DNA of 64,000 bases from Acidovorax facilis (GTDB lineage Bacteria; Pseudomonadota; Gammaproteobacteria; Burkholderiales; Burkholderiaceae_C). The notes below the pieces were generated by a model, which had not been told where the DNA came from, ran no database searches, and saw nothing but the letters and a program-made list of their open reading frames with translations. A program made the translations under genes and the position numbers. Positions within the stretch are counted from its first letter, which is position 1; each line of letters starts with the position of its first letter. Of the stretch, positions 6,258 to 40,901 are shown one piece after another. The DNA is taken from positions 22,950-86,949 of the forward strand of contig NZ_JAMXAX010000009.1 of NCBI RefSeq assembly GCF_023913775.1, in the 5' to 3' direction.

Positions 6258-8554
6258 AATGGCACTCCTTTTTCGTTGTCCACGTTGAAAGCCGGGAACA
6301 CGTTTTGCACGGGCCGGATGCCGGTTCCGTCGATCAGATAGGCCTTGTCCAACACCGAAGAACCGTCAACGGTCAGTGTGGCGCGCAGGTAGGCGCCGCC
6401 CGTCACCGGGGTTTTGACGTACTCCACGGTCGGAACCCGGGTCACGATCCTTGGAGCAAGGCCGCGCACGCCGGAAACGTTGAAGTCACCAGAGCGGTTT
6501 TCACCATCCAGCAAGAAGGTGTCGGCCAGCAGAAATTCGGGTATCGCGGCGGATTCCTGAATCGTCCAGCCCGGGAAGCCCTGCGAGGTCAGCAGGTCGC
6601 CGTTTGGGTCTGCGTAGGGCGAAATCCCCGTGGCAGGCAGCAGGCTGGCGAGGTTGAAATTGCCTGAGTTGAAAGGCACGTCCAGCCGGATCTCGACGGA
6701 CTTGCACTTGATGACCAGTTTTGGCGTGGGAGCTGTAGGAAGCCCGCCGCCGCCCGAGTTGGTGTAGGTCGAACTGGTGTCGGGTTCACTTTCCCAGGCA
6801 AAGAACTGGCTGAAACTCCGCGTGGCCTGGAATGTGCACTCCAAGTAGCACAGCAGATCAAGGGCCGGGTCGTACACCAGCAGTTCCCGTTGCTCCCGTT
6901 GGACGGTGTACTGAAACGCCTTGGAGTCCTGGCCGTATCGTTGCGCGGGCTCCCCGATGACGTTGTTCAGGTAGTGCTCTTCGGTGTCCACCGTCCCGAT
7001 TTCCACGTAGTCATACTTGACCAGGTAGAACCGCGAGCCATCGTTCAGCGTGAGATATTCATCAATGTGCAGGCTGCTGGATGGCGACTGGTTGGACAGC
7101 AGGTGCACCTCCTTGGCCTCGGTCAATTGACCAGGCTCATGGGGGCCGGTGTGGGTGGATTCGAAGTCGAAATACCCATCCAGGTAGCTGTAACTGACGC
7201 TGCCCGTGCACTCCGATTCGTGCGAAGTCACCTTGGCGCGCGGCAGCAGCACCATCTCACCGGCCACGAAATGCGGCTGGCAGTCGTAGGTCTTTTCAAT
7301 GCGGGTGAACCGCCCGCTGATGGGGCCAGCAATGGCCTCACTGCCCCTGTGCGCTGGGTCGTCGCCCTCGGTGTCTGTGTACTCGTTGGTGATGACGCGC
7401 GAAGGCCCGCTCTTGTAGTCAACGTGGACCCCCACATCGTCGCTGGTGACAATGGCCGACTGCGCGCCATCCCACGTGCCGGAATAAAGCCCTTCGGCGC
7501 TGATGTCGTCCTGGGGCACGGTGTGCACCACGGTCGGGCCGACAAACGAATCTCCGTCGCGATCGAACACCACGGCCGTCTGGTCGATGTTCTTGAAGCT
7601 CATTCGAACCACCGTGTTCGGCACGGTGATCGCGCCATTGACGGTGCTTCGGCTTGCGGTGGCGCGGTCGATGCGCTTTACCCGGAACAGAAAGCCAGCA
7701 TCGGCCTCCGTGTATTTGTTGCTGCTGACGTACTTGCGAAACAGCACCTGGGCGCCATCCTTGCGGATGTAGGGGCCTGAAATGGAAACATCTGGATCGC
7801 CTGGGGACTGCGCGATCATCTCCACGGCAGAGTCGTAATCGAGGGAAACGGTCGGCACCGAGCCCAGCGGCGCGCCAAAGTCCTTGAACAAGGACTCCAC
7901 ATCCACGGCGAACGAATAGACGATGCTCCATGCCTGGCTGCCACCCACGCCGTAAACCAGCGAGATGAACTTGTCGCGCGCGGCATTGACCCCGATAGGC
8001 CAGATGTAGTTGGCGTAGTTGTGCCCGTACCGCGCCACTATCTCGGCACTGCGGTACATGTAGCGCATCGGTGCCGGAATGATCGACGACGGCGCCACGA
8101 TGGCCTGCGTGTTGTACGGGGCTAGGGACTGGTTGGCGAATGCGTTGAAATAGCCAGTCAAGGTGGGGACGCTGGTGACGTCCCGAATCACCCACTGCTT
8201 CAAGGCTACGTCCACCGTCCCATCGTTGACCAAGACGATGTTGTGGTCCCGGAACAGGATGCCGCTGAAAACGCCAGTGCCAGGGGCCACGCCGCCCGCC
8301 GTCCAGAGTTCCATGATGCTCTGGTTGCCGACGACGAAGATCCTGAACCGCGAGCCATCAGGCAGTGCTCCAATGCCCGTGGGGTTAGGGGCCGCAGACA
8401 AGCGCGCGCTCGCCGTGAAGTTCTGAAAAGCCGTCTGCGCCATCGCCACCTGCGCGGCCGTGGCCATGGCGCCATACACGCGCAAGGTCGGCGGCGCCAC
8501 TGCGCCGACTGGTTGCCCCGTGGGGGTAAAAAACAGCGGGTTCCAGATGGTCAT
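6254..8554 (-). CDS. Large tail/virion protein
   Basis: A 766-aa protein. The start MTIWNPLFFTPTGQPV at 8554 overlaps the previous stop as ATGA; an upstream in-frame ATG at 8608 would lie inside the preceding gene and is unlikely. Its composition is that of a beta-rich structural protein with few charged clusters and no catalytic motif seen. It is the largest gene in the tail cluster, so a tail hub or spike role is plausible but unproven. Confidence 0.72.
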   Translation of the reverse strand: MTIWNPLFFTPTGQPVGAVAPPTLRVYGAMATAAQVAMAQTAFQNFTASARLSAAPNPTGIGALPDGSRFRIFVVGNQSIMELWTAGGVAPGTGVFSGILFRDHNIVLVNDGTVDVALKQWVIRDVTSVPTLTGYFNAFANQSLAPYNTQAIVAPSSIIPAPMRYMYRSAEIVARYGHNYANYIWPIGVNAARDKFISLVYGVGGSQAWSIVYSFAVDVESLFKDFGAPLGSVPTVSLDYDSAVEMIAQSPGDPDVSISGPYIRKDGAQVLFRKYVSSNKYTEADAGFLFRVKRIDRATASRSTVNGAITVPNTVVRMSFKNIDQTAVVFDRDGDSFVGPTVVHTVPQDDISAEGLYSGTWDGAQSAIVTSDDVGVHVDYKSGPSRVITNEYTDTEGDDPAHRGSEAIAGPISGRFTRIEKTYDCQPHFVAGEMVLLPRAKVTSHESECTGSVSYSYLDGYFDFESTHTGPHEPGQLTEAKEVHLLSNQSPSSSLHIDEYLTLNDGSRFYLVKYDYVEIGTVDTEEHYLNNVIGEPAQRYGQDSKAFQYTVQREQRELLVYDPALDLLCYLECTFQATRSFSQFFAWESEPDTSSTYTNSGGGGLPTAPTPKLVIKCKSVEIRLDVPFNSGNFNLASLLPATGISPYADPNGDLLTSQGFPGWTIQESAAIPEFLLADTFLLDGENRSGDFNVSGVRGLAPRIVTRVPTVEYVKTPVTGGAYLRATLTVDGSSVLDKAYLIDGTGIRPVQNVFPAFNVDNEKGVPF

Positions 8555-16016: not shown

Positions 16017-16307
16017 GTAGAGCCTACTCCTTGCGCCACGCCCCACTTCCCGCTTACACTGGCGCTGTCCTTTCGGGGATACGGGCTTGGCGGCCCGGAA
16101 AGACCACGCGGCCCAAAAGCCGCTTCGACACCGCAGTCAGCGGCTTTTTTCATGCCTTGGCGCAACCAGTTTCGGTGGCCCAGGTGGGAGAGCCGCAAGG
16201 CTCGCCGGTTTACGCTCCGCGTGGTCCCGGTCCGCCAATCCCGCTCTGGGTCACCACCTTCTTGGCGGTTGGTAGTGGCTTAACAGTTTGACCACCAGGA
16301 GCTAAAA
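16017..16307 (+). promoter_or_regulatory. Structured leader with intrinsic terminator upstream of the PD-(D/E)XK gene
   Basis: A 290-bp gene-free segment. It contains an intrinsic terminator (AGCCGCT/AGCGGCT at 16118-16145 followed by six T). A GC-rich part follows (TTGGCGCAACCAGTTTCGG, GGTGGGAGAGCCGCAAGG, GTTTACGCTCCGCGTGG), and then the next gene. I have the impression that this layout recurs upstream of accessory genes in other prophages. It could be a regulatory RNA leader. Confidence 0.55.
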
Positions 16308-31895: not shown

Positions 31896-31940
31896 GGAGT
31901 GTTCCGAGGACGGGCTTTGCAGGCGAACCCTACTGGGGGT
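31896..31940 (-). repeat. Bipartite late-operon element, copy E
   Basis: Minus strand CCCCCAGTAGGGTTCG, 18-base spacer, TCGGAACACTCCGG, then the terS ATG. It separates the tRNA-region terminator from the packaging genes, so this copy is the best candidate for a promoter or start signal of the late operon. Confidence 0.8.
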
Positions 31941-31941
31941 G

Positions 31942-31972
31942 GCAAAGAAAAGCCGCCTCACTGGACGGCTTT
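31942..31972 (-). terminator. Intrinsic terminator after the tRNA/ribozyme block
   Basis: Stem AAAGCCG/CGGCTTT (31949-31972), followed on the minus strand by a T-rich run (TTTTCTTTG). It closes the transcript that carries the ribozyme and tRNA elements, just before terS. Confidence 0.7.
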
Positions 31973-31980
31973 ATCTGACC

Positions 31981-32049
31981 CGGGTTGCTGAATTGAACAA
32001 GCTACCTCTTGCTTAGAAAGCAAGCGCTCTACCGTTGAGCTATGCCCGT
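31981..32049 (-). tRNA. Degenerate tRNA-Arg(TCT)-like element
   Basis: Minus strand. The D-arm is perfect (GCTC-AACGGTA-GAGC) and so is the anticodon arm (CTTGC-TTTCTAA-GCAAG, anticodon TCT). A T-loop TTCAATT is present, but its stem needs a bulge (GCTTG against CAGC) and only CGGG/CCCG of the acceptor stem can pair. No clear CCA end. It is either a decayed tRNA or a tRNA-like structure. It follows the tRNA-Met CCA end by two bases. Confidence 0.6.
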
Positions 32050-32051
32050 GT

Positions 32052-32127
32052 TGGTTGCGGTGGAGGCGCTCGCATCCTCGACTTTCGGGGTATGAACCCG
32101 GCGCTCTACTGTCTGAGCTACACCGCG
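32052..32127 (-). tRNA. Phage tRNA-Met(CAT) with initiator-like features
   Basis: 76 nt with encoded CCA. Acceptor CGCGGTG/CACCGCA, in which C1 faces A72, a hallmark of bacterial initiator tRNA. The D-arm is GCTC/GAGC. The anticodon stem has three consecutive G-C pairs next to the loop (GGG-TTCATAC-CCC), also an initiator trait. The T-stem is GAGGA/GCCTC with an A-G mismatch at the loop, and the T-loop reads TGCGAGC instead of the usual TTCRANN. The fold is otherwise complete. Residues 11-24 are C-G, as in elongators, so its role is uncertain. Confidence 0.75.
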
Positions 32128-32143
32128 ATATTTCAATGGCTCC

Positions 32144-32323
32144 AGGCGCCCTTCCCCCGGATGGCTTGTGGGACTTTCACCCCATGTGGTGGCCGGTGCG
32201 GCATTCCCGGCATTGGTGCTCGGCTCACTCCCCCACCGAGCCGATCCATGGGGGACTACGATACCCGAAGGTTTCGGCCTTATGGCCTCATCAGTCGTAG
32301 AAGTTGGATCGGCTTGGGCGCCT
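32144..32323 (-). ncRNA. Structured RNA domain enclosing the hammerhead ribozyme
   Basis: The segment is framed by a perfect 8-bp long-range pairing: AGGCGCCC (at 32316-32323) with GGGCGCCT (at 32144-32151). Inside it lie the hammerhead, a GCTCGG/CCGAGC hairpin, a GCCGG/CCGGC hairpin and TGGG/CCCA. The domain ends 17 bases before tRNA-Met. It looks like a folded transcript leader, not a random spacer. Confidence 0.6.
32256..32300 (-). ncRNA. Hammerhead self-cleaving ribozyme (type I)
   Basis: On the minus strand all core elements occur in order. Stem I 5' CTACGA, then CTGATGA; stem II GGCC-ATAA-GGCC; GAA; stem III ACC-TTCG-GGT; A17; stem I 3' TCGTAG. A15.1-U16.1 and G10.1-C11.1 pairs are present. 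The expected cleavage is after A at 32262. Stem I continues beyond an internal loop as GCCGATCC/GGATCGGC, which gives a place for the loop I-loop II tertiary contact. Both ends leave through stem I, hence type I. Confidence 0.92.
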
Positions 32324-32397
32324 ACTTGCCGAGCGTGGCGCCGTATGCTCTTGCGCATTCACCATCCCTGAACATGATGCCGCGCTCTGCGGTGGTG

Positions 32398-32757
32398 TCA
32401 AGCCTTTGGCATCTCCGGCGTTATGAACGGCATGATGTGGGTGATGAAGTCGGGGTCGTAGCCTTCCTCTTCTCCACTGAAATACACACGGCCAGCATGT
32501 AGCTTGGTAGCTGCTATCACTGGCTCTGGGTAATACTGCTTGCAGGCCAGCCAGTATTTGGTATGCAGCGGCTCCTTCTGCAACCTCTCCAGCCGCTCAG
32601 GCGTCAGGGGCTCCCATGCTTGGGCTGGAGTTGCCTTTTTGCTCGCGGCGATGAGGTTTGCCCACTCCATAAGATCCCCGCTTGTGAAGCTCTGGGCGTC
32701 TTCGATTCCCATGCGTTCAAGCATGTCGCGGGCGGCTTGTTCTGCGGTTTCGTTCAT
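32398..32757 (-). CDS. Phage protein of unknown function
   Basis: A 119-aa acidic protein (MNETAEQAARDMLERMGIED, WEPLTPERLERLQKEPLHTK, PFITPEMPKA). It is the last protein gene of the leftward early operon before the tRNA/ribozyme block. Its ATG overlaps the stop of an interrupted upstream frame. Confidence 0.68.
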   Translation of the reverse strand: MNETAEQAARDMLERMGIEDAQSFTSGDLMEWANLIAASKKATPAQAWEPLTPERLERLQKEPLHTKYWLACKQYYPEPVIAATKLHAGRVYFSGEEEGYDPDFITHIMPFITPEMPKA

Positions 32758-40812: not shown

Positions 40813-40901
40813 TTGATACCCTTTCAAGAAAACCCAGAAAAATCACGTCGGCAGGCAGTGGGTGAGGCTGCTTTTCGGTAGCGAACCTAGCCGGGTGAAA
40901 C

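Follow-up and report, generated by a model that had tools for sequence, protein, structure and literature searches.

What purpose could a hammerhead ribozyme serve in front of the tRNA genes of a prophage? The locus that raises this question lies in a 64,000-nucleotide stretch of DNA from Acidovorax facilis (contig NZ_JAMXAX010000009.1, positions 22,950 to 86,949), the whole of which is called the window here. Hammerheads are known in prophages, some of them with pseudoknots, and the functions of bacterial and phage hammerheads are called unclear in the available text of PMC3088659. A first-pass annotation reported a complete type I hammerhead on the minus strand at 32300-32256, within a prophage and ahead of tRNAs and terS. 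Every element of the motif was found there, with a core free of mismatches. The setting was confirmed by Rfam, ARAGORN and PHROG matches, and the predicted cut lies 134 nt upstream of the tRNA-Met-like gene, as had been proposed.

The criteria used for a hammerhead were CUGANGA, GAA, an A15.1-U16.1 pair, a position 17 other than G and no mispair adjoining the core (available text of PMC3088659). All of these are present in the window, where both ends of the motif exit through stem I, as in type I. Judged by its sequence, the predicted ribozyme belongs with the ordinary hammerheads of type I. The pattern CTGATGAGN{6,14}CGAAAC matched once in the window and in none of 100 shuffles, which together with covariation in relatives rules out a chance motif. 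A search with the Rfam hammerhead models, suggested as a check, gave a weak match to Hammerhead_HH9 (RF02275) at 28.6 bits (E 4.7e-5 over 601 bases). Since this is below the gathering score of 52, the window hammerhead is absent from a scan at gathering scores; Hammerhead_1 (RF00163) likewise gave 28.7 bits for a relative, L490, under its cut-off of 34. The annotated outer extension of stem I, GCCGATCC/GGATCGGC, is present, but the supposed internal loop is not simply a loop, as its 3' strand TCCCCCA can pair with TGGGGGA, a pairing kept in relatives. The hammerhead is thus real but is only a part of the element, being embedded in a longer RNA at 32350-32218 (Table 1).

Table 1. Features of the RNA element and of its surroundings in the window.
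Feature	Position	Strand	Basis or remark
Whole RNA element, 133 nt, GAGCATACG...GCCGAGC	32350-32218	minus	R1 model over 32334-32218; helix e and 5' motif add 32350-32335
5' motif GAGCATAC, directly before helix e	32350-32343	minus	GC(A/G)TAC there in 15/22 class 1 sequences, counted by eye in the alignment
Helix e, 5' strand GGCGCC	32342-32337	minus	132/132 positions paired, 22 sequences
Helix e, 3' strand GGCGCC, crossing P0	32322-32317	minus	covariation
Helix P0 (7 bp), 5' strand GCTCGGC	32334-32328	minus	153/154 positions paired, 22 sequences
Helix P0, 3' strand GCCGAGC	32224-32218	minus	covariation
Unpaired AAGTA	32327-32323	minus	invariant in class 1 alignment; AAGTAG was the search key of one scan, not for loci from earlier scans or DNA comparison
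Helix a (8 bp), 5' strand GCCGATCC	32313-32306	minus	best stem per sequence
Helix a, 3' strand GGATCGGC	32247-32240	minus	best stem per sequence
Hammerhead stem I, 5' strand CTACGA	32300-32295	minus	sequence, Rfam match, covariation
Hammerhead core CTGATGA	32294-32288	minus	sequence, pattern scan
Hammerhead stem-loop II GGCC-ATAA-GGCC	32287-32276	minus	sequence, Rfam match
Hammerhead core GAA	32275-32273	minus	sequence
Stem-loop III ACC-TTCG-GGT	32272-32263	minus	sequence
Cleavage nucleotide, position 17 = A32262	32262	minus	predicted cut between 32262 and 32261
Hammerhead stem I, 3' strand TCGTAG	32261-32256	minus	predicted 5'-OH end of downstream piece = 32261
Helix c, 5' strand TCCCCCA	32255-32249	minus	128/132 positions paired (6 bp counted), 22 sequences
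Helix c, 3' strand TGGGGGA, crossing helix a	32235-32229	minus	covariation
GTGA between c and P0	32228-32225	minus	invariant in class 1 alignment; demanded by one class 1 descriptor used in searching
Promoter-like TTGACA-16-CATCAT upstream of element	32401-32374	minus	1 found vs 0.3 expected; weak
tRNA-Met-like gene	32127-32055	minus	Rfam tRNA 47.6 bits; not called by ARAGORN
tRNA-Arg (TCT)	32050-31977	minus	Rfam and ARAGORN
Terminator-like hairpin and T run after tRNAs	31970-31944	minus	own scan (L001, same sequence); a scan with a shorter loop limit lists none
Terminase small subunit gene (terS)	31890-31303	minus	PHROG 1482, E 1.6e-44

In this longer RNA the six bases just before P0 pair with the six just after AAGTA to form helix e. 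Stem I is extended by helix a. The strand that separates stem I from a' (strand c) pairs with c' on the 3' side of a'; because c' lies beyond a', this pairing would make a pseudoknot. The predicted fold has two pseudoknots, with e crossing P0 and a crossing c, and the hammerhead is placed between a and c. What we term class 1 is defined by helices e, P0, a and c, by AAGTA and GTGA as linkers and by a hammerhead lying between a and c; all of these are found in the window, whose sequence was among those from which the class was defined.

The first scan for relatives covered 80 of 97 loci that have a related terS. Hammerheads were found there in a contig that has the window's sequence and in L039, where the motif lies before terS and the cut is 30 nt from the first possible start codon and about 110 nt from the likely one. 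A viral collection scanned with hammerhead patterns gave at least 161 distinct scanner hits. Many of these hammerheads were by eye of the kind just upstream of single genes, and a subset carries the outer pairing (a, c and then the closing helix P0). In flank shuffles 0-1 of 200 had outer pairing as good as that of L039, the window's sequence, L094, L100, L181 or L120. Three further loci (L194, L148 and L131) beat all 200 shuffles in the pseudoknot scan and were left out, their pairing being read as a long terminator-like hairpin. A descriptor that did not demand a hammerhead gave 35 matches, of which 25 contain a hammerhead; the other 10 were judged to be chance matches, most of the sequence searched having been chosen by hammerhead patterns.

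The element was counted as 30 lineages after copies and near copies were dropped (L001, L002, L003, L090, L100, L403, L411, L414, L434, L438, L449, L451, L461, L469, L477, L480, L481 and L482); L489-L493 were added after the count. The RNA recurs across unrelated phages, often near tRNA or DNA-packaging genes. Genome searches with strict filters found the element only in the window's own genome (1 of 47 genomes in the genus, 1 of 399 in the order, 1 of 369 in the class and 1 of 398 in the phylum).

The scans also returned hammerheads of other kinds. A third group with the stem GTCCTT/AAGGAC was seen in L089, L095, L117, L126, L128 and L261; in L089 and L128 the post-cut CCGGT can pair with ACCGG downstream, perhaps making another permuted relative, and L128 also contains a Betaproteobacteria-1 RNA. 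Hammerhead pairs or triples on one strand were found in L084, L088, L105, L109, L111, L113, L118 and L124, in several of which the stem GGTTAA/TTAACC lies a short way upstream of an ATG.

The pairing of class 1 was assessed in a plain sequence alignment of 22 sequences. Of the 504 cells of helices e, P0, b and c, 98.8% are paired (helix b at 87 of 88 positions), compared to 39-48% in a control with slid partners. Both sides were changed in 118 cells against 26.5 in shuffles, none of 500 shuffles being as high, and 20 of the 23 pairs show such both-side changes, compensatory changes in P0 included. The shuffles ignore relatedness, while the slid-register control keeps it and agrees. In 2000 strand permutations the pair count was not reached for any of e, P0, b or c. 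Helix e played no part in choosing the sequences, except for L460, and its register gap to P0 was the best of four tried (3 in 20 sequences and 2 in two). For helix a, a stem of at least six pairs was found by search in 22 of 22 relatives.

A covariance model, R1, was built on 16 sequences including that of the window, which itself scores 119.9 bits over 32334-32218. Phages that were absent from the training set and had been located through DNA comparison with members score 83-94 bits: the Klebsiella phages Magnus (93.3 bits), DP01 (92.1), KlebP_265 (92.1) and 05F01 (93.6), and the N4-like VTCCBPA_322 (88.4), PD205 (82.8) and BaqKoxi (91.2). The Pseudomonas aeruginosa phages phita81A and 5371 (96.0 bits) and PACT201 (71.3 bits) are copies or near copies of the R1 member L403. 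A class 1 element of 58 bits with a changed core, GAAG, lies in a 1-Mb plasmid record of Klebsiella pneumoniae (NZ_CP079635; L489 3013-3120) and is probably decayed. R1 had no match in the stretches fetched of Burkholderia phage CSP3, D3, phi1 and PHB09; the D3-like phages D3 and phi1 were rejected as carriers, as the element is absent there though the neighbouring DNA matches. R1 had no match in PaP3 either. Hammerheads reported for PaP3 and Bcep176 in the available text of PMC3088659 were not located, because a relaxed hammerhead scan was empty in both.

A second class was found to have the same helix topology with other linkers (GTGGG, GCAG, CATCT and ATAAC). Nine members are collinear with class 1, seven of them pattern-scan loci and the other two phiGD24-3 (Mycobacterium) and Constance (Arthrobacter). 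In seven more, including Enterobacter phage SDFMU_EhYP and Pectobacterium phage Pappous, the helices e, P0, a and c occur in permuted order, with the hammerhead and 3' half followed by a linker (a hairpin in several) and then by the 5' half. Because the class 2 helices were selected for pairing, their pairing count is informative only as to the variety of pairs. In each of the seven permuted loci 0-2 of 500 shuffles had a joint score for e, P0 and a as good as the one observed. The class 2 descriptor demanded a hammerhead core ahead of the 3' half. DNA comparison with the class 2 locus L223 hit 14 records, and the four that were fetched, two collinear and two permuted, all had the hammerhead core at the junction. 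Stem II is weak in Pappous. With the core at the same junction, the predicted cut immediately precedes the strand leading into c in both gene orders.

A permuted unit (L257) lies between tRNA-Gly and tRNA-Ser, and by eye a terminator-like hairpin follows soon after a in L250 and L468. For class 1 no candidate permuted gene was found in the collected sequence. When class 2 loci were compared with named phages, L120 had no match and L240 had tRNA matches among the matches listed. Among the other records hit with L223, short matches to the 3' half of class 2 were seen in Mycobacterium phage Gaia, the prophages prophiGD24-3, prophiT46-3 and prophiBWHA-1, Arthrobacter phage Karkharias, Dickeya phage Setonix and Pectobacterium phage Taid, which are all likely further members of class 2 by this resemblance. 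Near the permuted element of a viral contig, L467, ARAGORN called a permuted tmRNA (6387-6770, minus strand) with the tag ANESTFLKVA.

In the window the element is followed on the same strand by the tRNA-Met-like gene, tRNA-Arg, the terminator-like hairpin, terS and terL. The neighbours of its relatives vary and include terS, tRNA arrays, a tail fibre gene and an SbcC-like gene; terS is downstream also in L039, L396, L227, L448 and L130 and 2.3 kb off in L399. A tRNA lies within 1 kb in 12 of 30 lineages versus 9 of 131 other hammerhead hits, a control that excludes the class 2 variants L237, L250, L257, L263, L465, L466, L467 and L468. Random places on the same contigs had a tRNA that close in 4.8 cases on average and at most 9 in 400 draws. 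For the other 18 lineages the stretches examined contain no tRNA that close. In five of 25 loci (L405, L403, L439, L240 and L181) a terminator-like site is found no more than 60 nt behind the RNA, which would there end its own transcript.

Several smaller features were observed in and around these loci. The tRNA-Met-like gene of the window has an unusual T loop, ATGCGAG, and may be decaying. A hairpin with the loop GAAAGA (GGAAAGAC) is found closely 3' of P0 in five class 1 loci (L094, L219, L266, L397 and L100), and its counterpart in the window, TGGG-GTGAAAGT-CCCA, lies further down (32184-32169, minus strand). In L253 (4250-4620) a hammerhead directly follows a TGACAGCCC-GGAAAGAC-GGGC hairpin, with the loop seen in the class 1 flanks. 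The window also contains a C4 antisense RNA (16168-16261, plus strand) and an int-alpA RNA (40832-40897, minus strand).

We consider it fairly probable that the hammerhead is a built-in cutter that matures a free-standing, trans-acting phage RNA with two pseudoknots. Once transcribed, the RNA would fold and the hammerhead would cut after A32262, between helices a and c, giving an 89-nt 5' piece (32350-32262) and a 3' piece with 5'-OH UCGUAG at its front, which has 44 nt as far as 32218 plus a tail. P0 and a would clamp both pieces, and the mature molecule would therefore be a nicked double pseudoknot. In RNA from a permuted gene the same cut would trim the front of a single chain, giving a one-piece molecule with the same break and the same fold. 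The other ends would be made by processing of flanking tRNAs (RNase P and tRNA 3' trimming) or by an intrinsic terminator. The reordering of the gene is why we read the hammerhead as forming one end of a mature RNA: a free folded RNA would survive it, like permuted tmRNA, whereas a switch or processing site acting in cis is unlikely to. It is from gene order, too, that we infer action in trans, and its occurrence in tRNA arrays points to a role in phage translation or its defence. In the full proposal these phage RNAs would form a new class that acts in trans, is cut by its own hammerhead to a nicked double pseudoknot, is carried as a cassette in tRNA arrays of unrelated phages, has collinear and circularly permuted genes and perhaps guards phage translation. 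This proposal has in our view about an even chance of being right.

The first-pass annotation had instead suggested for the hammerhead a role as a stand-alone processing site, which may free the tRNA transcript or tRNA precursors, or split early mRNA from the later mRNA with the tRNAs and terS. The position of the motif between early genes, tRNAs and terS, and the downstream terS in the six relatives named above, are as such a site would have them, and hammerheads that flank single genes in prophages were proposed to cut long transcripts (available text of PMC3088659). We nevertheless regard this role as unlikely, because the two pieces are predicted to be held together by P0 and a, and because it explains neither the varied contexts, nor the terminator-like sites within 60 nt in five of 25 loci, nor the permuted genes of class 2.

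The class 1 fold exceeds what a hammerhead is known to require for activity. Together with the invariant unpaired AAGTA and GTGA and the frequent 5' GC(A/G)TAC beside the helices, this would suit a natural allosteric ribozyme, in which the double pseudoknot would govern transcript cleavage in response to a ligand, perhaps a tRNA. A switch of this sort appears slightly less likely still, as no neighbouring gene is consistent and the permuted order and close terminators suit a free RNA better.

The RNA behaves as a cassette that is present or absent. In DP01 it lies 7 nt before a tRNA-Ser, while KP591P1 shares flank and tRNA with DP01 but lacks the element. Phages VTCCBPA_322, PD205 and BaqKoxi carry the element at a site where AN24P2 has nothing and where E20 and Bas96 have a sequence with a tRNA-like look. 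Such empty sites in close relatives, along with the wide scatter over unrelated phages, would be expected of a small mobile or selfish RNA whose ribozyme helps it to spread, for example as a circularised form that reinserts into tRNA arrays. This appears improbable to us: by eye there is no clear target-site duplication in the comparisons DP01/KP591P1 and VTCCBPA_322/AN24P2, the hammerhead is single and is central rather than terminal, and ordinary recombination between phage tRNA arrays explains the presence and absence.

Nearest-neighbour folding, in which pseudoknots are outside the calculation, gave -27.4 kcal/mol for the isolated window stretch with its outer helix when a non-catalytic pairing replaces stem III, versus -24.8 for the drawn fold, which has one outer pair fewer. 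For the window core alone, the catalytic fold is 1.0 kcal/mol above the minimum-energy fold. In 24 of the 29 lineages parsed (L460 being left out) the drawn catalytic core of the isolated core differs from the minimum-energy fold, with gaps of 0.1-4.7 kcal/mol, and in five the two are equal. The pair 10.1-11.1 of stem II, next to the core, is mismatched in five class 1 lineages (L471, L472, L475, L476 and L478) and in phiGD24-3 (L491), that is, in Klebsiella (DP01 among them), N4-like and Mycobacterium phages, and because of this mismatch the predicted cleavage may be slow or lost there. CTGANGA, GAA and a position 17 other than G are kept in 30 of 30 lineages; this constancy is largely built in, because most members were found by patterns containing the hammerhead, and the finder used for most lineages itself demanded a position 17 other than G. 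The mismatches and the energies would agree with a relic hammerhead in a pseudoknotted RNA that alone matters and is not cut, but we find this the least credible reading, given the core kept throughout, though largely by design of the search, and its presence also in phages reached by DNA comparison.

A self-maturing RNA remains our preferred reading. If it is true, the ribozyme would act as the enzyme that matures a larger structured RNA of DNA phages, a testable answer to the question of what a hammerhead is for. It would add an RNA class missing from Rfam, in phages that are named and can be grown. The natural circular permutation would reveal which covalent links the RNA can dispense with, and the pseudoknots that clamp the ribozyme would be natural constructs for structure work.

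No Rfam 15 family was found at its gathering score over 32350-32218 of the window or over the element in the loci searched. The larger RNA was not described in the literature covered, namely the titles and abstract openings of open-access articles. On this evidence the RNA that holds the hammerhead is a new class, though single members may be present in the supplementary alignment of PMC3088659. The element shares the core, the three stems and the cleavage nucleotide with Hammerhead_1 and Hammerhead_HH9, but the HH9 consensus is without helix e, P0 or c. The pseudoknot in the available text of PMC3088659 links loop I to nucleotides by stem II, unlike the e/P0 and a/c pseudoknots of the element, and that text deals with arrays flanking genes and not with a larger conserved RNA, tRNA arrays or its permutation. 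In Type-SGC hammerheads, which have pseudoknots and a reordered catalytic core, it is the core itself that is reordered (available text of PMC10085705), whereas the element keeps an ordinary type I core and it is the RNA around this core that is permuted. Theta ribozymes are self-cleaving, HDV-like RNAs that adjoin phage tRNA genes, as the element does, and cut at the tRNA 3' end; a hammerhead is not mentioned in the available text of PMC10879173. The element is not a theta ribozyme, as its helix order differs and the Rfam matches over 31900-32500, taken to E 10, include no HDV-like family. Between the hammerhead and the tRNA a match to a Group II intron, at 15.2 bits against a cut-off of 49, was dismissed. 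The stable RNAs rnaC and rnaD of T4 (AF158101) lie in a phage tRNA array, a setting like that of the element; they had no R1 match and by eye no CTGANGA core, and identity with them was rejected.

The hammerheads of viroids, satellite RNAs and retrozymes mature the structured non-coding RNA that carries them by cutting replication multimers to unit length, whereas in the element the cut would fall within a single copy of an RNA from a DNA phage. The element was not called as tmRNA by ARAGORN or Rfam, and one sub-threshold RF04321 match lies elsewhere in L472. In permuted, two-piece tmRNA one fold is made from collinear or permuted genes, with protein nucleases as the maturing agents, and the collinear and permuted orders of the element's genes are like these.
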